From assembly GCA_028284665.1 (NCBI GenBank), contig JANQRG010000046.1, positions 186,001-250,000 of the forward strand: a stretch of DNA of 64,000 nucleotides, given 5' to 3'. The stretch is from Croceivirga sp. GTDB lineage: Bacteria > Bacteroidota > Bacteroidia > Flavobacteriales > Flavobacteriaceae. The first letter of the stretch is position 1. Each line of letters starts with the position of its first letter. Below the pieces are notes generated by a model. The model was not told the DNA's origin and searched no databases. It worked only from the letters and a program-made list of their open reading frames with translations. Below, one piece after another: positions 29,430 to 44,335 of this stretch. The position numbers were made by a program, and so were the translations under genes.

Positions 29430-29816
29430 CTATTTTTCGGGGTCGTAGGATTGAAAAGTACCGTCCTTATAAAACAGCACCACCTTTACCACCTCTTTTC
29501 CCTGATCTGGTTTTGGTTCCTTTACATTTTTTGAGGGCGAGGGCTTTTCTATTCTCTCCTGTGCGTCAAAAAGCGGTGTTACGGAAGAGGGTAGGGTTGT
29601 AGCAGGATCAGCAGGAAACGTTCCTTCACCATGTAGCAGCCAATAGAGATTCACTTCAGGGTATTTCCGAACCAACTTCATTACAAAATCCAAACTCGGT
29701 TTGTTTCTTCCCGAGAGCAAATGGGAAATGCTGGAACGGGGAACACCAAGGTTATCTGCAAAGCCAGAAGGGCTCAGCTGATAATGGTTGAGGATGATTT
29801 TTATTCGTTCAAGCAT
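29430..29816 (-). CDS. XRE-family HTH regulator
   Basis: A 128-residue regulator: an N-terminal lambda-repressor-type HTH (about 8-55, with GFADNLGVPRSSISHLLSGRN) followed by VNLYWLLHGEGTF, then a charged linker and a short C-terminal beta segment (VVLFYKDGTFQSY). The NLYWLLxGEG turn is shared with the regulator at 39389-39772, so both belong to one flavobacterial repressor type. It probably autoregulates: a perfect 8+2+8 palindrome sits between its -7 element and the ATG. Targets unknown. Confidence 0.82.
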   Translation of the reverse strand: MLERIKIILNHYQLSPSGFADNLGVPRSSISHLLSGRNKPSLDFVMKLVRKYPEVNLYWLLHGEGTFPADPATTLPSSVTPLFDAQERIEKPSPSKNVKEPKPDQGKEVVKVVLFYKDGTFQSYDPEK

Positions 29817-35541: not shown

Positions 35542-36102
35542 TTACAGATTTTTTGCAAGGGTCTCTTTGCGCTGCTCCAGCTTTTCCCGCTCCTTACGCA
35601 GCTCTTCCTTTTCTTTTAAGACCTGTAGTTCGGTATCCATGGCTTCCAGATCAATCCCATGTACATGTTTGTCATAGAGTTTTAGACGGATAAAGTAGAC
35701 AAAAGGAATAACGACAACACAAATAGGTAATAACCACAAAAGATTGTCGCTATCTACAACGTCATCATTAGAAACGTATAATTCAAAAACCTGGAAAGCA
35801 TACATCAACACCGGGATCAAAATGATATGGTACCACCAATGCTTGCAGGTAAAAAACCAAATTAACATCAGGTATAAAGGGACGAATTTGCTTACAAAGA
35901 ACCAAGCATGAATATCGATTGAAACGAAACCGTTTTTCCCGATTTCAAACCACAGAAATTTTAGCGTCTCAACCGATTCGTCGTTAGGAAGGTATTCGTG
36001 ACTTTTAAAGATAAAGGGGGAAAGCAATATCATAAATGCCACAAAAGACTCAATAAAAATCCTTTTCCTTGCTGATTTATTTATCTGTATTTTTTTCCTC
36101 AC
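35542..36102 (-). CDS. four-helix membrane protein, single-unit relative of the island proteins
   Basis: A 186-residue membrane protein from a GTG start. About four helices (roughly 13-33, 60-82, 86-105, 118-138) are followed by a charged coiled-coil tail (DTELQVLKEKEELRKEREK). The motif CKHWWYHIILIPVLMYAFQV matches KWWRYALLVPILMAVFQI in the two larger proteins at 37241 and 38370, as do the following acidic loop and the DKHVHGID/RKTYDHVE-like segment. It thus corresponds to the C-terminal half of those proteins. No known family recognised. It is separated from the upstream small peptide gene by a terminator. Confidence 0.72.
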   Translation of the reverse strand: MRKKIQINKSARKRIFIESFVAFMILLSPFIFKSHEYLPNDESVETLKFLWFEIGKNGFVSIDIHAWFFVSKFVPLYLMLIWFFTCKHWWYHIILIPVLMYAFQVFELYVSNDDVVDSDNLLWLLPICVVVIPFVYFIRLKLYDKHVHGIDLEAMDTELQVLKEKEELRKEREKLEQRKETLAKNL

Positions 36103-36489: not shown

Positions 36490-36903
36490 CTATCCTTCGG
36501 AATACTCGATACGACGGGTGGTTTCGTCGATAAACTGCAAATGGACGGCCAGATGATCTTCGGGAATCAGATTGGGGATCTTTTCCGGCCATTCGATAAA
36601 AAGATACACCCCGCTGGAAAAATACTCTTCCAGGCCCAGGTCCAGCGCTTCCTCCTCCGAAGTGATCCTATAAAAATCAAAATGATACCCAATGACCTCT
36701 CCGCTTGAATTAACGTATTCGTTGACCAGATTAAAGGTCGGGCTATGGCCAGCATCCTGCCCTCCCAATTCCTGGATCATTGCTTTGACCAAAGTGGTTT
36801 TGCCGGTTCCCATAACACCATAAAAACAAAAGAAGCGGTGTTGAGTGTTCAGCAGGCCCCCTGCAATACCAGGAATATCAGCAATTGTATATAAAATAGT
36901 CAT
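36490..36903 (-). CDS. tsaE: tRNA threonylcarbamoyladenosine biosynthesis ATPase
   Basis: A 137-residue P-loop ATPase that works with TsaB and TsaD to make t6A in ANN-decoding tRNAs. Walker A YGVMGTGKTTLVKAM, then SPTFNLVNEYVN, the HFDFYRI motif and LFIEWPEKI are all diagnostic of TsaE. In many flavobacteria it is a close neighbour of porX, as I recall; here 5.9 kb of accessory DNA separates them. Confidence 0.93.
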   Translation of the reverse strand: MTILYTIADIPGIAGGLLNTQHRFFCFYGVMGTGKTTLVKAMIQELGGQDAGHSPTFNLVNEYVNSSGEVIGYHFDFYRITSEEEALDLGLEEYFSSGVYLFIEWPEKIPNLIPEDHLAVHLQFIDETTRRIEYSEG

Positions 36904-37240
36904 TTTAAATTTAAGGTATTGGATTTTTAAGACAAACGAATAGTCACTTTCAATATGAGAAATTTGTAAAACTTACCTGGCAACGGGAGTTTTCTTGGCT
37001 CATTCGTATTCAATTTCGGATTAATAGATTTTCAATGCTTTTAACCAATTCCTAAAACTAGTAAAAACATATAGTCGGGTTGAAAGTTACAAGATGTTTC
37101 GTATTCTTTTTTTTTAGAATAGCAATTATTAGACTTTTGACCCTGTGCACCTTTTTAAATCTGATAGCATTATGTTTGTAGAAAATATTCTTTTCTTAAT
37201 CTTGAATTTCTTATATTTCATATTCAATCGAGTTTAAGGG
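36904..37240 (+). other. A+T-rich left boundary region of the accessory island
   Basis: A 337-base spacer between the divergent tsaE and 37241 genes. It has no ORF beyond a few codons, a T9 run near 37110-37125, and the promoter/motif site at 37171-37191. No tRNA, no integrase remnant and no clear direct repeat matching the right side was found by eye. Confidence 0.4.
37171..37191 (+). promoter_or_regulatory. -7 element with island motif copy 1 (TAGAAAATATTCT)
   Basis: TATGTTTG (37171-37178, perfect TAnnTTTG) is followed directly by TAGAAAATATTCT (37179-37191), which has the inverted repeat AGAA-AATA-TTCT. The motif would overlap the start site of the gene at 37241, so a bound protein should repress it. 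Confidence 0.55.
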
Positions 37241-38269
37241 GTGATAGTAGAGAATCGAAGAAGCACATTTTCTAAGGAAATACTGACTGCACTTTTGATT
37301 CTGACTACATGTTTAATGCTACACTTGCACCTGTTAGTCGATGAAAAACCTTCAACATTTTACCTTTTAGGAAGGGAATTTCATCACGGTTATGTGAGTA
37401 ACCAGGCATATGTTTGGTATTCCCTCTATTATTTGCAAGTTCTTGTGTATACAACCCTTTGTTTTTACTTCTGTAAAAGAAGATTTAAATACGCTTTATT
37501 GGCTTTAATCTATTGGATGATTTATGGTATGATAGCGGATCTATATCCCAAATCGTATGGAACTAATAAGCTCGTACTACAAAGTTTCGGCATGTTCATA
37601 ACGGTTGTTTTTATAGGGGGTATTATAATAACAAAAATCAATCGGCAAAAGAGCTATGACTATATCTTCAAATTCAATAAATACAAGTATGATGTGGTCA
37701 TAACAGTACTACTTGTTTTTCTACCTTTTTTGGAGAGAGTAATTTATCGTATGCCCGATAACCTCCAGGAAATAGATTTATCTGTTGTGAGCGTTACTAG
37801 CAATGGATTTCCGAACTTATCAACGTTTTTTTTCTATTTACTGCTAAAACTCTTTGTAATTGCTCCTACATCTTTGCTTTTCTTTGGAATAAGAAAATGG
37901 TGGCGTTATGCCCTACTTGTTCCGATTCTAATGGCTGTATTTCAGATCAAAACAGCCTTTAATTCAGATTCAGAAGATATAGATACGTACGAAATTTTTG
38001 AAGCCGCTCCCTTACTAATCATAGTATTGGCGCTATTACTCTTTCTCTCCAATACGGCCTACTACCAAGCTAAAATGCAGGAGTTATACAGGAAAACCTA
38101 CGATCATGTAGAGCAGGCTATTCAAATAAGGTTTGGGGGAAGAGAGTGTTTTTTATCTCAGACCAAAACAAAGTGGCAAGAAATGAAGAAGTCCGATGAT
38201 CTAAACGAGGACGAGCTATATCAGCTCAAACAACGCCTGGAACAAGAGCTTCAAAAACATGGAAGCTAA
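37241..38269 (+). CDS. internally duplicated membrane protein, tandem copy 1
   Basis: A 342-residue membrane protein with about eight helices, from a GTG start (MIVENRRSTFSKE aligns with MIAVNRKNSFKKE in copy 2). The two halves repeat one plan: hydrophobic helix, loop, FYFCKRRFKYALLALIYWMIYG in half one and FFGIRKWWRYALLVPILMAVFQ in half two. A charged coiled-coil tail (RKTYDHVEQAI to the end) follows. The last 130 residues are nearly identical in pattern to copy 2. No known family recognised; helix count and coiled coil would suit a sensor or membrane partner of a transporter. Visibly A+T-rich compared with tsaE and porX. Confidence 0.72.
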   Translation: MIVENRRSTFSKEILTALLILTTCLMLHLHLLVDEKPSTFYLLGREFHHGYVSNQAYVWYSLYYLQVLVYTTLCFYFCKRRFKYALLALIYWMIYGMIADLYPKSYGTNKLVLQSFGMFITVVFIGGIIITKINRQKSYDYIFKFNKYKYDVVITVLLVFLPFLERVIYRMPDNLQEIDLSVVSVTSNGFPNLSTFFFYLLLKLFVIAPTSLLFFGIRKWWRYALLVPILMAVFQIKTAFNSDSEDIDTYEIFEAAPLLIIVLALLLFLSNTAYYQAKMQELYRKTYDHVEQAIQIRFGGRECFLSQTKTKWQEMKKSDDLNEDELYQLKQRLEQELQKHGS

Positions 38270-38306
38270 GTGCTATTGACAAACTCTTTTTTATGCCCCT
38301 ATATTA

Positions 38307-38319
38307 TAGAAAATATACT
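38307..38319 (+). promoter_or_regulatory. island motif copy 2 (TAGAAAATATACT)
   Basis: Twelve of thirteen bases match copy 1. It lies 50 bases before the ATG of tandem copy 2, with TATCTTTC (one mismatch to TAnnTTTG) at 38340-38347 between them. Confidence 0.45.
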
Positions 38320-38369
38320 TTAAGATACTATAAATTCAGTATCTTTCTGTTTCATGCAAGTTGTTTTTG

Positions 38370-39395
38370 ATGATAGCAGTTAATCGTAAAAATTCATTTA
38401 AAAAAGAAGTGTTGCTAGCCCTTTTAATTTTGGGTAATTGCTTTATTCCTTCATTGCACTTACTAGCTAGCCTTGAGTTCAATTCATTGGAAATTCTTGG
38501 GTATGAGTTGGTGCATTACTATCCAAGCAATCAGTCCTTTTTTTGGACCGTGCTTACCAATTTTCAAATACTGAATTATACCTTGATCTTTTTTTATCTC
38601 TGTACAAGAAGATACAAATATGCCTTACTTGCCCTTGCCTATTGGATGTTTTATGGAATAGTATGGGATATTTTACCTTGGGCAGATGAAAAATCAAAAG
38701 TGATTATTCAAATCACAAGTATGTTTTTGATTTTTGGGATGGCAATTTTCTTAGAACTTCTAAGATTTCGCAAACAGGAAAGTTGTTTTAATAGCTTAAA
38801 ACTCAAAACGCATAGATCAGATAAAATAATCACTTTCATGCTATTGCTTTTGCCCTTTTTATCCCGTGCGATAAGGTTCTCAGAAGAGTTGCAAGAATTG
38901 AATTTTCTTGGCTTTACTATTACCACCTTTGGATTCCCCAATATTCATAGCTTTTTAGGATATCTATTAGACAAAATCTTTTTGTTAGTTCCCGTGCTTA
39001 TGTTGTTTTTTAGCTCCAAAAAGTGGTGGCGCTATGCGCTGTTGTTTCCCATACTTTTGGCGGTTTTTCAAATCAAAAATGCTCTTGATCCTAATTTAGA
39101 AGATGTGGATGCCTATGAATTTGTAGAGGCAGCCCCTTTTTTGCTTTTAGTGCTAGTACTATTACTCTTCCTTTCCAATACGGCCTACTACCAATCCAAA
39201 ATGAAGGAATTATATAGAAAAACCTACGATCATGTAGAGGAGGCTATTCAAGGAAGGTTTAAGGGAAGAGAGTATTTTTTATCGCAAACTAAAGCAAAGT
39301 GGCAAAAAATGAAGAAGTCCAATGAGATAAACGAAAATGAGCTGCATCAACTAAAACAGCACCTGGAGCAGGAGCTCCGGAAATCCAACTATTGA
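38370..39395 (+). CDS. internally duplicated membrane protein, tandem copy 2
   Basis: A 341-residue paralog of the preceding gene with the same eight-helix double-unit plan (FYLCTRRYKYALLALAYWMFYG and FFSSKKWWRYALLFPILLAVFQ) and the same tail (RKTYDHVEEAIQGRF ... KAKWQKMKKSNE). The C-terminal third is far more conserved between the copies than the N-terminal part, so the tandem duplication has either diverged under different selection or been partly homogenised by gene conversion. Start at the ATG at 38370; a TTG at 38361 is in frame. Its end overlaps the convergent XRE gene by seven bases. Confidence 0.72.
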   Translation: MIAVNRKNSFKKEVLLALLILGNCFIPSLHLLASLEFNSLEILGYELVHYYPSNQSFFWTVLTNFQILNYTLIFFYLCTRRYKYALLALAYWMFYGIVWDILPWADEKSKVIIQITSMFLIFGMAIFLELLRFRKQESCFNSLKLKTHRSDKIITFMLLLLPFLSRAIRFSEELQELNFLGFTITTFGFPNIHSFLGYLLDKIFLLVPVLMLFFSSKKWWRYALLFPILLAVFQIKNALDPNLEDVDAYEFVEAAPFLLLVLVLLLFLSNTAYYQSKMKELYRKTYDHVEEAIQGRFKGREYFLSQTKAKWQKMKKSNEINENELHQLKQHLEQELRKSNY

Positions 39396-39772
39396 TCTCC
39401 TTTCCCTTTGCGCCTTTCAATCTCAGCGGTGACTTCTTCTAATAAAGTCCGCAATTCTTTTTCCTGACGCGCCCGGATCTTCGCTTCAATGATCTGTTCT
39501 AATTGTTTTTGTTCGCTTAGCGGCAGCTTTCCCGTCTTTAAAATAGCTTTATCCGGATTGAGCATTTGCCCTTCGCCGGTCATCAGCCAGATCAGGTTGA
39601 GGTGTGGATAGGTACGGATAATGGTCTCAATAACATCACTCCCCACAGAGGCATGGTTTTTCTTCATACGAAGGGTATATCCATTGCTGGCACCTATGGA
39701 AAGGTCAAATTGCCGCGCACTCATTCCGGAGTATTCGATAAACTGCATTAGCCTATCAATAGTCTTGATCAT
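39389..39772 (-). CDS. XRE-like repressor of the island
   Basis: A 127-residue regulator with an N-terminal HTH (about 6-60, SARQFDLSIGASNGYTLRMKK), the NLIWLMTGEGQML turn shared with 29430-29816, and a charged coiled-coil C-terminus (LEQIIEAKIRARQEKELRTLLEEV). It is divergent from the HlyD gene and convergent with the tandem membrane genes. Copies of one 13-bp palindromic motif lie at its own promoter, at the HlyD promoter and before both membrane genes, so it is the obvious candidate to bind them. That link is inference. Confidence 0.8.
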   Translation of the reverse strand: MIKTIDRLMQFIEYSGMSARQFDLSIGASNGYTLRMKKNHASVGSDVIETIIRTYPHLNLIWLMTGEGQMLNPDKAILKTGKLPLSEQKQLEQIIEAKIRARQEKELRTLLEEVTAEIERRKGKGDQ

Positions 39773-39798
39773 ACTGTTCAGGTTCTAATCGATTGTAC

Positions 39799-39816
39799 CA
39801 AAAATACTATTTTCTA
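39799..39816 (-). promoter_or_regulatory. promoter of the island repressor with motif copy 4
   Basis: Minus-strand TATTTTTG (39799-39806) is overlapped by TAGAAAATAGTAT (39804-39816), which matches the island motif at 11 of 13 positions. A protein bound here would block its own gene. Confidence 0.5.
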
Positions 39817-39883
39817 TGTGCTTTCCCAATTTAAACTGGGGTTTTCCTTGTTAAAGGCCAAAATCATAGATTAATTTCTTTTT

Positions 39884-39906
39884 ATATAGAAAATATTCTA
39901 TATTTG
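39884..39906 (+). promoter_or_regulatory. HlyD promoter with palindromic motif copy 3
   Basis: ATATAGAA-AATA-TTCTATAT (39884-39903) is a perfect 8+4+8 palindrome containing the full 13-bp island motif. It overlaps the -7 element TATATTTG (39899-39906). The ATG is only seven bases further, so the transcript is leaderless or almost so. Confidence 0.6.
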
Positions 39907-39913
39907 ATTTGTT

Positions 39914-41068
39914 ATGAGAAAACTCTTTCCAAAAGAAATTATTGAGAATACAGTTCAGGGTTATCTACCACAGCATTCTGATAGTAGTAAAGCCATTAAC
40001 GGCATTCTATTAACGCTTTTGGTTACAGCCTTGTCCGCTCTTCCCTTGATAAAGATACAGCTATATTCCACAGTGAGGGGAGTGGTAAAGCCTGGAAGTG
40101 AACGGACCGTGCTTACCAGCCTGCATTCCGGAACAGTCCTGTGCTCTCAATTGTCAGCAAATACGTCGGCGATCAAAGGGGATACGTTGCTGATCTTACG
40201 AAGTGTCCAGCTTAGCGAACAGCTAGCACAAGAACAGTATATCCGGGAACGGTTTCAGAAGCAAATCCGTGATTTACAACTATTGGTGAAAGGAAACCAT
40301 ATTTCCTGGGAGGGACTGGTGTCCAGCACCTATAAAAAAGCCTACCTGGAGTATCAGGAGCAGCTTCGGGAGCACCGTACCCGGATTACAAAGCTAAAAG
40401 CTGATTTTGATCGGAACACCAAACTGTTTTCGCGCGGTGTGATCGCCCAGGTAACGTATGAGGATCAGAAACTGGAATATGATTTGGCCCGGAATGCCAT
40501 GCATCAGTTTAAAAAAGGGCAATTGCATCGTTGGCAGACTACTTTGGTTGAACTGGAAGACAAACTGCAAAGAACGAGACATGAGATTAATCGCCTGAAC
40601 GAAAGCAAGAAAGAATATGTGATCACAGCTCCGGTGTCAGGAACGCTGATAAATGTTAAAAACAATGTGGCCCCTGGAAGTATGCTTACCGCAGGGGTAG
40701 TATTGGCTGAGGTTTCCCCCGATTTGGAGGTATTGGCGGAATGCTATGTAACCCCTGGGGAAATAGGTCTCATTGATCCTTTCAAACCCGTCAAATTTCA
40801 AATCGATGCTTATAATCATAATCAATGGGGATTCGCCACTGGTAGTGTCCTGGACGTAGGAAAGGATATTGAACTTGTTGAGAATACCTCGGTATACAAA
40901 ATTCGCTGCAACAACATAGATCAAGACTATTTGCAACTCAAGAACGGCGCTAAGGGAAGCTTACGTAAAGGAACGTCCTTGACAGCACGATTTGAATTGG
41001 CCGAACGCAGCTTATTTCAACTCCTGCATGATAAAGTAAATGATTGGATTCACCCCGGAACTGACTAG
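39914..41068 (+). CDS. HlyD-family membrane fusion protein
   Basis: A 384-residue adaptor of the type that joins peptidase-containing ABC exporters to an outer-membrane channel. One membrane helix at about 28-50 (INGILLTLLVTALSALPLI), a periplasmic half-lipoyl domain, a long coiled-coil hairpin (about 100-225), the second half-lipoyl VITAPVSGTLINVKNNVAPG, and a beta-barrel. It appears intact, although the ABC exporter downstream is a remnant. It is followed by a short HTH gene after 20 bases. Confidence 0.87.
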   Translation: MRKLFPKEIIENTVQGYLPQHSDSSKAINGILLTLLVTALSALPLIKIQLYSTVRGVVKPGSERTVLTSLHSGTVLCSQLSANTSAIKGDTLLILRSVQLSEQLAQEQYIRERFQKQIRDLQLLVKGNHISWEGLVSSTYKKAYLEYQEQLREHRTRITKLKADFDRNTKLFSRGVIAQVTYEDQKLEYDLARNAMHQFKKGQLHRWQTTLVELEDKLQRTRHEINRLNESKKEYVITAPVSGTLINVKNNVAPGSMLTAGVVLAEVSPDLEVLAECYVTPGEIGLIDPFKPVKFQIDAYNHNQWGFATGSVLDVGKDIELVENTSVYKIRCNNIDQDYLQLKNGAKGSLRKGTSLTARFELAERSLFQLLHDKVNDWIHPGTD

Positions 41069-41088: not shown

Positions 41089-41409
41089 ATGAGCACCCAC
41101 TTAACCAGGAAATTAGAAAACATGTTGCTATTGCACAATCAGATCAAAGTTAGGGAAACGGGATCAGCGGCGGTAATTGCCCGCGCACTGGAAATTCCTG
41201 AAACAGAGGTTTATTACCTGGTACAACAGCTGATGGAATTGAACCCATCCCTCCGGTATCATCCGGAAAAAAAGACCTACTACTATGGTGACGGGTTTCC
41301 AGATCACATAGCGATCTCTGTGGCTGTAGTTCGAGGGAGCGATGCTATTCAGAAACTCCTTAACGTCACTACCCACGAACCGATTACCTATAACTTCCTC
41401 TTTACTTAA
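41089..41409 (+). CDS. short HTH protein A
   Basis: A 106-residue protein with a DeoR/HTH_11-like N-terminal domain (RKLENMLLLHNQIKVRETGS, then IARALEIPETEVYYLVQQL) and YHPEKKTYYYGDGF. The same plan is seen in the 79-residue protein at 42194-42433 (LRATGRPKQLAQRLEVSEATVFRIIDAM, then YYDPARQSYVYSE). Short HTH proteins of this kind often accompany C39-type exporters in flavobacteria, in my memory, but their role is not established. The C-terminal 40 residues are unlike the shorter copy. Confidence 0.68.
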   Translation: MSTHLTRKLENMLLLHNQIKVRETGSAAVIARALEIPETEVYYLVQQLMELNPSLRYHPEKKTYYYGDGFPDHIAISVAVVRGSDAIQKLLNVTTHEPITYNFLFT

Positions 41410-42193: not shown

Positions 42194-42433
42194 ATGAAAC
42201 AGTTGACCAAGCAAATTGCTCTTTTAGAACGCGTGGACCAATTGATACGTTTGCGCGCCACTGGCAGACCGAAACAATTGGCACAACGACTTGAAGTCTC
42301 CGAGGCCACCGTATTTCGGATCATTGACGCTATGAAAGCTTTAGATGCACCAATTTATTATGATCCGGCAAGACAAAGCTACGTTTATTCCGAACCCACA
42401 GAATTTAAATATGGCTTTTATCTGGAAGAATAA
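42194..42433 (+). CDS. short HTH protein B
   Basis: A 79-residue protein (MKQLTKQIALLERVDQLIRL) with a DeoR/HTH_11-like domain and a C-terminus ending FKYGFYLEE. Very similar 70-80 residue proteins are frequent in flavobacteria near bacteriocin-type exporters, as I recall. It is a divergent relative of the 106-residue protein at 41089. Whether it binds DNA is not shown. Confidence 0.72.
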   Translation: MKQLTKQIALLERVDQLIRLRATGRPKQLAQRLEVSEATVFRIIDAMKALDAPIYYDPARQSYVYSEPTEFKYGFYLEE

Positions 42434-42790: not shown

Positions 42791-44335
42791 TCACTTCCCT
42801 TCCAACACAACAAAAGGCACAATCATCTCCTCTAAGGAAATCCCGCCATGCTGATAGGTATTCCGGTAATAGCTTACATAGTGGTTATAGTTATTAGGAT
42901 AGGCAAAAAAGAGGTCGTTCTTGGCAAAGATATAGGAGCTGCTCACATTGATCCGGGGCAAGTGGATGTTTTCCGGTTGCCGTGCGGCTAGGACTTCTTT
43001 TTCATTGTAGGTCAGACTTTTACCCGTTTTATACCGCAGATTCAAACTGGTATCCCGATCCCCGATCACTTTAGAAGGTTGTTTTACATTGATGGTGCCG
43101 TGGTCCGTGGTGATGATCAGTTTCATTCCCAGGGCCTGGGCCTGTTGGATGATTTCCAACAAGGGGGAATTCTTAAACCAACTTAGGGTCAACGAACGAT
43201 AGGCCTTGTCGTTCCCGGCTAGTTCCTTAATCACTTCCATCTCCGTTTTGGCATGGGAGAGCATATCCACAAAATTGTAGACCACCACGGTAAGATCGTT
43301 ATCTCTTTGGGTTTTAAAATTCTGTACCAACTGTTTCCCCTGTTTTAGGCTGCTGATCTTGTGGTATTCCCATTTCAGGTCCAGGCGTAACCGCTTAAGT
43401 TGCGCGCCCAAAAACTCGGCTTCAAAAAGGTTTTTGCCGCCTTCATCCGTATCGTTCTTCCACCAATCAGGGTGACGTTTTTCCATCTCCAGGGGAGTAA
43501 GCCCTGAAAAAAGGGCATTCCGAGCGTATTGGGTAGCAGTAGGAAGAATACTGTAATAAGGGATCTCTTTCTGCTTTCGGTAAAAATTGGTCACTACATC
43601 TTCTATGGCCCACCATTGATCGTATCGAAGGTTGTCAATAACCACCAAAAGGGTAGGGGTATCTCCCAATTCAGGCCGCACCAGCTTTTTAAATAGGGTA
43701 TGCGATACTATCGGGCCTTCTTCTTCCTCAAACCAATCCCTGTAATTTTTTTCCACATACTTGCTGAACTGGTTGTTGGCTTCCAGTTTTTGCGACTCCA
43801 GGATCTCGAACATGCTGTTGTCCTCAATAGCTTCCAACTGCAATTCCCAATAGATCAATTTCTTGTAGAGCTCCGCCCACGCTTCATGGGAATTCACCAT
43901 AGAAAGGTCCATAGCAATCTTGCGAAATTCTTGTTGGTAATTGGCTGTAGTACGCTCTGAGACCAGCCGGGAATTCTCCAGGTTCTTTTTTAAAGAGAGC
44001 AGGATTTGGTTCGGATTAACAGGTTTTATCAGGTAATCGGCTATTTTACTGCCAATAGCCTCATCCATAATATACTCTTCCTCGCTTTTGGTGATCATCA
44101 CCACAGGAAGAAGGGGATCTTTCTGTTTTAGTTCGGACAAGGTTTCCAAACCGGACAGTCCGGGCATGTTCTCATCCAGGAAAACCACATCAAAGGTATG
44201 TTCAGTAACTTCTTCAAGGGCTTCCTGTCCGCTTTGTGCAGTAGTCAATGTATATCCCTTGCCTTCGAGAAATAAGATATGGGGTTTGAGAAGTTCTATT
44301 TCATCATCCACCCATAGAATGGAAATCTTTTTCAT
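42791..44335 (-). CDS. porX: type IX secretion regulator PorX (receiver and PglZ domains)
   Basis: A 514-residue orphan response regulator. The receiver domain (about 1-120) has the acidic pocket VDDE, the phospho-acceptor Asp in VVFLDENMPG and the Lys in LIKPVN. A helical linker leads to a PglZ/alkaline-phosphatase-like domain (about 210-510) with VVIDNLRYDQWW and TTDHGTINV metal ligands. In Porphyromonas and Flavobacterium, PorX with PorY and a sigma factor controls type IX secretion genes, and the PglZ domain has phosphodiesterase activity. Its presence points to gliding or secreted enzymes. Confidence 0.93.
   Translation of the reverse strand: MKKISILWVDDEIELLKPHILFLEGKGYTLTTAQSGQEALEEVTEHTFDVVFLDENMPGLSGLETLSELKQKDPLLPVVMITKSEEEYIMDEAIGSKIADYLIKPVNPNQILLSLKKNLENSRLVSERTTANYQQEFRKIAMDLSMVNSHEAWAELYKKLIYWELQLEAIEDNSMFEILESQKLEANNQFSKYVEKNYRDWFEEEEGPIVSHTLFKKLVRPELGDTPTLLVVIDNLRYDQWWAIEDVVTNFYRKQKEIPYYSILPTATQYARNALFSGLTPLEMEKRHPDWWKNDTDEGGKNLFEAEFLGAQLKRLRLDLKWEYHKISSLKQGKQLVQNFKTQRDNDLTVVVYNFVDMLSHAKTEMEVIKELAGNDKAYRSLTLSWFKNSPLLEIIQQAQALGMKLIITTDHGTINVKQPSKVIGDRDTSLNLRYKTGKSLTYNEKEVLAARQPENIHLPRINVSSSYIFAKNDLFFAYPNNYNHYVSYYRNTYQHGGISLEEMIVPFVVLEGK

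Follow-up and report, generated by a model that had tools for sequence, protein, structure and literature searches.

A palindromic operator predicted for a cI-like protein, a probable regulator of natural-transformation genes in Flavobacteriaceae

In the competence systems governed by ComK, by Sxy/TfoX with CRP and by ComE/ComX, a single factor coordinates genes for the uptake and recombination of DNA, among them comEC, dprA, comM and radC, and streptococcal competence employs the peptide exporter ComAB. Literature searches limited to open-access papers brought up no competence regulator of Bacteroidota. Two Riemerella species have been shown to be naturally transformable (PMC7965970, PMC8459023). 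According to the latter report, a screen in a family member found ComEC, DprA and an outer-membrane carboxypeptidase-regulatory-like protein to be essential for transformation, YifB/ComM mutants showed reduced transformation, and RA0C_RS04915 was essential in R. anatipestifer (PMC8459023). Homologues are present in Flavobacterium johnsoniae, yet no transformation was obtained under the same conditions, and the trigger was left open by the authors (PMC7965970, PMC8459023). The LexA-like SOS repressors of Bacteroidetes, as described in PMC8565304, are self-regulated, cI-like helix-turn-helix (HTH) proteins with an S24 peptidase domain and a palindromic operator (GGA-N5-TCC or CTAA-N5-TTAG in Flavobacteriaceae), and have RadC among their targets. 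Here we describe a palindrome that recurs beside the gene of a 127-aa XRE-like protein in a 64,000-nucleotide stretch of Croceivirga sp. (GenBank assembly GCA_028284665.1, contig JANQRG010000046.1, positions 186,001 to 250,000; hereafter the window). Comparison with relatives indicates, with good confidence, that the palindrome is the operator of this protein, which in Flavobacteriaceae would control natural-transformation genes, most likely by repressing them.

In placing one factor over uptake and recombination genes, the predicted system resembles those of ComK, Sxy/TfoX with CRP and ComE/ComX, but the regulator showed no profile match to a named regulator family and is probably a repressor. 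No Pfam or NCBIfam family was found for it at 0.1 and no PDB sequence match at 0.01, and it matched a PHROG transcriptional regulator with an E of 4.2e-5. The AlphaFold model (mean predicted local distance difference test score, pLDDT, of 83.4) contained helices at residues 4-15, 19-26, 32-38, 45-54 and 60-65, in agreement with a multi-helix HTH fold. A Foldseek search with this model retrieved P22 c2 and 434 Cro at probabilities of 0.99-1.00, the best E of the search being 0.05, and DdrO was among the weak fold matches. The predicted HTH fold is shared with these three proteins, whereas the single long C-terminal helix and the lack of a significant PDB sequence match set the regulator apart. 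An S24 peptidase domain was found neither by the Pfam scan nor in the model. At E ≤ 1e-5, matches to the regulator were present in 36 of 149 genomes, its own included; 20 of these had at least 45% identity, the remainder being only distantly related, XRE-like proteins. When named genomes were scanned, 101 relatives came up; the 80 best loci were retained, including those of Croceivirga, Croceitalea, Maribacter, Eudoraea, Robiginitalea, Galbibacter and Psychroserpens.

A de novo palindromic motif search was performed on the upstream regions, at most 220 bp long, of 80 orthologues, namely 79 of the 80 kept loci and the window; locus L175, with its upstream region cut off, was left out. The search returned TATAGAAWATWTTCTATA, with 22.8 bits of information and an estimated occupancy of 0.91 in these Flavobacteriaceae regulator upstream regions. 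Its log-likelihood gain was 482, compared with 29-33 in three shuffled sets, and the best copy of the window was a perfect match to it. A weight matrix was trained solely on the regulator upstream regions, the window's own included. Sites of at least 14 bits were present in 56 of the 80 regions from which the matrix was built, regions that come from kin sequences and so cannot be treated as independent of one another. The regulator loci, 618.5 kb in all, contained 103 sites of at least 14 bits, compared with 2.3 in simulated sequence; 69 of them were close to the start of a regulator gene and 29 to that of a membrane-protein gene. Among the latter, 14 overlapped the start of tsaE and two more resembled these; all 16 are doubtful, which left 13, found mostly in the Psychroserpens group and in one case at a distance of 266 bp. 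Most of the 16 (e.g. TGCAGAAAATAATCTATA) overlap the first codons of tsaE and may reflect coding conservation; they were rejected as operators and not counted. The comparison of orthologous loci proposed in the earlier note on this DNA thus bore out that the operator is conserved upstream of regulator orthologues, and it is from the relatives, not from counts in its own genome, that the motif derives its significance.

The predicted operator reaches far beyond the locus of the window. With at most one mismatch, the 18-mer was matched in 21 of the 149 genomes, mostly once or twice in each. Four genomes carried clusters of 9, 5, 7 and 7 such sites (reversed controls 1, 0, 1 and 0), and in genus g46, to which one of the four belongs and which was taken as Psychroserpens, 3-9 sites were present in 16 of 23 species. 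Contexts were collected for 64 site loci of 12 genomes, eight among the g46 genomes listed (one of them, G165, with 7 of its 9 sites) together with G015, G018, G055 and G072. These loci were chosen by site alone, save that three sites at regulator loci already collected (two in G018, one in G015) were omitted, by which the regulator and membrane gene are under-counted. Downstream genes were clustered, and classes were named by hidden Markov model (HMM) searches on one or two members each. The largest classes were M23 peptidase (9; PF01551), ComM/YifB (8; TIGR00368), PolB-like exonuclease (6; PF10108) and ComEC (5; PF03772), followed by RecJ (3; TIGR00644), DprA (3; TIGR00732), GIY-YIG (3; PF01541), DUF2851 (3; PF11013), RadC (2; NF000642) and penicillin amidase (2). 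Recombinase-like, DUF559, regulator and membrane genes were found once each, and 16 loci fell into no class. Outside this sample, the site neighbours in six further single-hit genomes (L269-L272, L274, L275) included no competence gene. Genes for DUF2851 carried the operator in two genera (L308, L323, L328, L109); judged from these sites, DUF2851 is a candidate new DNA-uptake gene.

In genus g46, the predicted operator tracks the presence of the regulator. The regulator was found in 19 of the 23 genomes, that of G166 being no more than a 30-residue fragment at the end of a contig, and was not detected in the other four. Sites with at most one mismatch were present in 18 of the 19 genomes with the regulator and in none of the four without it (Fisher 5.6e-4, relatedness ignored). 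When gene sites were defined by a matrix score of at least 12 within -130 to +30 of the start codon, comEC and dprA each had a site in 18/19 genomes with the regulator versus 0/4 without it; for comM the counts were 16/17 versus 0/4, with G160 and G166 omitted (one match cut at a contig start, one genome without a match). All three genes were still present in the four regulator-less genomes. A regulator of purely local scope, acting on membrane proteins and a peptide exporter while the distant sites arose by chance or belong to another protein, would fit the strongest site of the window's genome being local and the lack of a genome-wide excess there; set against the counts in g46, with none of the 12 gene tests positive in genomes without the regulator, it appears extremely improbable.

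The gene classes also bear on the possibility of an SOS-like DNA-damage regulator. Under that reading comM, radC, recJ and the nucleases would be there for repair; radC, recJ and the nucleases are indeed repair genes, DdrO was among the weak fold matches, and the published Bacteroidetes SOS analysis includes RadC, Ssb and an exonuclease (PMC8565304). The family's SOS repressors described there, though likewise cI-like, self-regulated and RadC-targeting, differ from the present protein in their S24 domain and in their operators, and comEC and dprA, which are transformation genes, are among the predicted targets here together with comM. No recA, dinB or uvr gene was seen among the site neighbours, a statement that covers the reference classes counted and not the 16 unclassified loci. 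An SOS-like role is therefore considered quite unlikely, and the genes probably form a competence regulon whose regulator represents a new family, distinct from the known SOS repressors of the phylum.

As for the mechanism, the five HTH helices and the long terminal helix of the AlphaFold model suggest that a dimer formed via the C-terminal helix would bind the dyad. Two features suggest that the bound regulator would block RNA polymerase: the operator end forms the first half of a TAnnTTTG box, the Bacteroidetes -7 box, at some of the sites, and the site centres lie 8-40 bp ahead of start codons. Among 231 unique sites of at least 17 bits, the box started at offset +14 in 37, compared with 0-7 at any other offset. 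At +14 it shares the last four bases of the operator; since the operator ends in TATA, part of this overlap is built in, and about three cases would be expected by estimate. In the Psychroserpens group, sites often abutted the start codon (centre -8 to -17). Box overlap and closeness to the start codon argue moderately for repression, which a signal, perhaps sensed via the membrane proteins encoded alongside, would lift; we infer the sign of regulation, the signal and the part played by the membrane proteins. The same regulon might instead be served by an activator of competence genes. The comM and radC sites of the window's genus have their centres about 38 bp ahead of the start codon, which may place them upstream of the promoter, and the strong dyad at the regulator's own gene lies about 80 bp upstream of its -7-like box, both of which would suit activation; the box overlap at a single offset and the many Psychroserpens-group sites abutting start codons speak against it, and an activator seems rather doubtful. 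That the box overlap holds at only 37/231 sites takes some weight from the repressor and adds some to the activator.

In the window's own genome, 19 places matched the 18-mer with at most three mismatches, of which seven scored at least 15.5 bits, the next reaching 11.8. Three of the seven were local, one preceded radC (22.6 bits), one lay at a divergent nuclease/outer-membrane gene pair (15.5 bits), and two (C16:12661 and C18:43424; 18.6 and 18.5 bits, respectively) had no clear target. The comM site was weak, and comEC and dprA had no site. The predicted regulon here would comprise hlyD/regulator, both tandem membrane genes (TM1 and TM2), radC, the nuclease/outer-membrane pair and, weakly, comM. 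Among 11 genomes of the genus, comM sites scored 11.7, 18.7, 12.4 and 15.3 bits and nuclease-gene sites 15.5, 20.5, 21.1 and 22.6 bits in G000, G001, G005 and G008, respectively, all centred 30-40 bp before the start; radC was checked in G000 only. The predicted operator was found at comEC, dprA and comM in g46; in the genus of the window comM carried one in 4/11 genomes and comEC and dprA in 0/11. A DUF2851 site (16.9 bits) was seen in G006 only, and no site was present in G003 and G009, which had no regulator hit at 1e-5.

Several observations weigh against a competence regulon controlled by this protein. The loose motif stays at background level across the own genome: the 14-mer with at most two mismatches gave 36+32 strand-hits, compared with 47+41 for the reversed control, and the 19 places of the 18-mer compare with 23 in the control, so neither was enriched. 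In all 11 genomes of the genus, comEC, dprA, recJ and the PolB-like exonuclease gene had no site (highest score 9.0), and sites at comM and the nuclease gene were lacking in 5 of the 9 regulator-bearing ones, four of which (G002, G004, G007, G010) had no sites and one, G006, only that at DUF2851. In g46, the four regulator-less genomes share one region of the DprA tree, and the P values ignore kinship; the tree, weakly resolved, needs two changes, with one possible, so that the regulator was perhaps lost twice or even once. G164 of the same genus keeps the regulator yet showed no sites, those at comM, comEC and dprA being absent too, and may be losing the regulon. G072 carries seven near-exact sites with no regulator hit at 1e-5; this genome is only 84% complete, and either the regulator is absent from the assembly or the regulon is an orphan. 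The 16 unclassified loci also count here, and no role in competence is known for the M23, DUF2851, lipoprotein and penicillin-amidase genes. The strict TAnnTTTG box, finally, was absent at offsets 12-18 in 190 of the 231 sites.

If the proposed regulon is real, it would give a first handle on the control of natural transformation in marine flavobacteria; a predicted repressor with a defined operator is directly testable, and the operator list nominates new uptake proteins. A fuller competence circuit, so far undescribed in Bacteroidota, is possible, if tentative: membrane sensors of the 186-aa/TM family and, in some genera, a ComAB-like exporter would share their locus with a cI-like repressor and be under its control, and the repressor would silence uptake and recombination genes until a signal, possibly a peptide pheromone, arrives. 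The uptake machinery would then have unrecognised parts in the M23 peptidase, PolB-like exonuclease, DUF2851 and GIY-YIG proteins. Resembling ComAB, a C39 peptidase-ABC exporter and a HlyD-like partner stand beside the regulator in some Croceivirga/Croceitalea relatives; here, by contrast, the module is accessory, its window copy is truncated, and one pattern search of 11 stretches gave no convincing GG-leader peptide. Residues 3-163 and 167-227 of the C39-ABC remnant match 1-161 and 489-549 of a relative's 725-aa protein (relatives whose gene lay entirely within the stretch examined have 721-727 aa), so that the middle part (161 to 489, the membrane domain of relatives) is missing and the end is lost.

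The features of the window are listed in Table 1. All four motif copies lay at the positions given in the earlier note, and TAnnTTTG boxes indeed touched or overlapped three of them. With at most two mismatches, the 13-mer had 10 matches in the window, compared with 4.2 expected (standard deviation 2.2), a number reached in 2 of 100 shuffles; this excess by itself is weak evidence. In a matrix scan of the window only the TM1, TM2 and main operators reached at least 10 bits. The proposal that copies precede both membrane genes, the HlyD gene and the regulator gene therefore stood for three strong sites, while the fourth copy, at the regulator, is a left half-site only, joined to the regulator's own -7-like box; TAGAAAATAGTAT was present in 9 of 80 regulator upstream regions including the window, all from close relatives or named Croceitalea-group genomes. 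The core of the TM1 operator lies directly 3' of TATGTTTG (37171-37178), and the right arm of the main operator overlaps the -7-like box of hlyD. This predicted box ends about 8 bp ahead of the hlyD ATG (39899-39914), which suggests that the transcript would be leaderless or nearly so.

Table 1. Genes, motif copies and predicted regulatory elements, in window coordinates
Feature	Coordinates	Strand	Remarks
186-aa core membrane protein	35542..36102	-	distant relative of TM1/TM2
tsaE	36490..36903	-	conserved flank
TAnnTTTG box	37171-37178		
Operator of TM1	37177..37194	+	upstream of first tandem membrane gene; 15.6 bits
Motif copy 1 (13-mer)	37179-37191	+	0 mismatches
TM1 membrane protein, 342 aa	37241..38269	+	C-terminal half related to 186-aa family; operator upstream
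Operator of TM2	38305..38322	+	upstream of second tandem membrane gene; 17.7 bits
Motif copy 2 (13-mer)	38307-38319	+	1 mismatch
TM2 membrane protein, 344 aa	38361..39395	+	52% identity to TM1; operator upstream
127-aa XRE/cI-like regulator	39389..39772	-	predicted 5-helix HTH and long C-terminal helix, residues 85-125
TAnnTTTG box	39799-39806	-	
Half-operator fused to the regulator's -7-like box (TAGAAAATAGTATTTTTG)	39799..39816	-	2.8 bits
Motif copy 4 (13-mer)	39804-39816	-	2 mismatches
Main operator (predicted)	39884..39903	strandless	core 39885-39902; perfect copy of family consensus; 25.3 bits; hlyD/regulator
Motif copy 3 (13-mer)	39887-39899	+	0 mismatches; within exact 8+4+8 palindrome 39884-39903
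TAnnTTTG box	39899-39906		
TATATTTG (the preceding box), predicted -7 element of hlyD	39899..39906	+	overlapped by main operator
HlyD-family adaptor	39914..41068	+	first gene across operator from regulator
106-aa small winged-HTH-like protein	41089..41409	+	weak HMM hits
C39 peptidase-ABC exporter remnant, 227 aa	41416..42099	+	truncated
79-aa HTH protein	42194..42433	+	
PorX-like response regulator	42791..44335	-	conserved flank

The earlier note had described a small regulon in an accessory island. The gene order porX, regulator, membrane gene(s), tsaE, 186-aa membrane gene, alanine dehydrogenase (ald) recurs family-wide (we take the flank genes to be tsaE, porX and alanine dehydrogenase), with exceptions and, in the Psychroserpens group, with tsaE and the 186-aa gene standing before the regulator. 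Because this order is syntenic across Flavobacteriaceae, the locus is core; the exporter module (HlyD, small HTH, C39-ABC, small HTH) has been inserted in it as an accessory part. A small, local regulon was not supported: whole-genome scans gave strong sites elsewhere (radC, for example), and in various genomes the operator also precedes comM, comEC, dprA, radC and nuclease genes. What survives of the single repressor for membrane proteins and export is an HTH protein with a predicted palindromic operator between its gene and that of HlyD, and also before membrane genes, kept in relatives. The export module has the operator before its HlyD gene and is accessory, and in this genome its C39-ABC gene is truncated. 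The HlyD gene was found in 15 of 149 genomes, its own included, and did not adjoin the regulator in all; in other genera a small HTH gene divergent from the regulator takes its place.

The gene of the 186-aa membrane protein had no site of its own of at least 10 bits in the window, and the predicted structure of the protein (pLDDT 69) had no PDB match at E ≤ 0.001. PADLOC matched KwaA and a CARF-TM model weakly, and there were PHROG matches without a known function; these were set aside. In G001, the nuclease gene (PF19580) is divergent from a gene whose 913-aa product carries a carboxypeptidase-regulatory domain. This product agrees with the published account of R. anatipestifer RA0C_RS04915, an equivalence by domain description only. 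Its counterpart in the own genome (L404 10728-11327) has 199 aa instead of 913 and adjoins, judged by eye, resolvase-like and other mobile-element-like genes. About 50 bp downstream of the 18.6-bit operator of the own genome, a 66-aa, probably secreted, cysteine-containing open reading frame (ORF; L006 1256-1456) is a possible signal peptide candidate, and an ORF about 170 bp from the 18.5-bit operator (L002 1499-1516) was HIT-like by eye. A second XRE-like protein of the window (29430-29816, minus strand) showed only distant kinship to the regulator (22% identity, E 1.9e-4).

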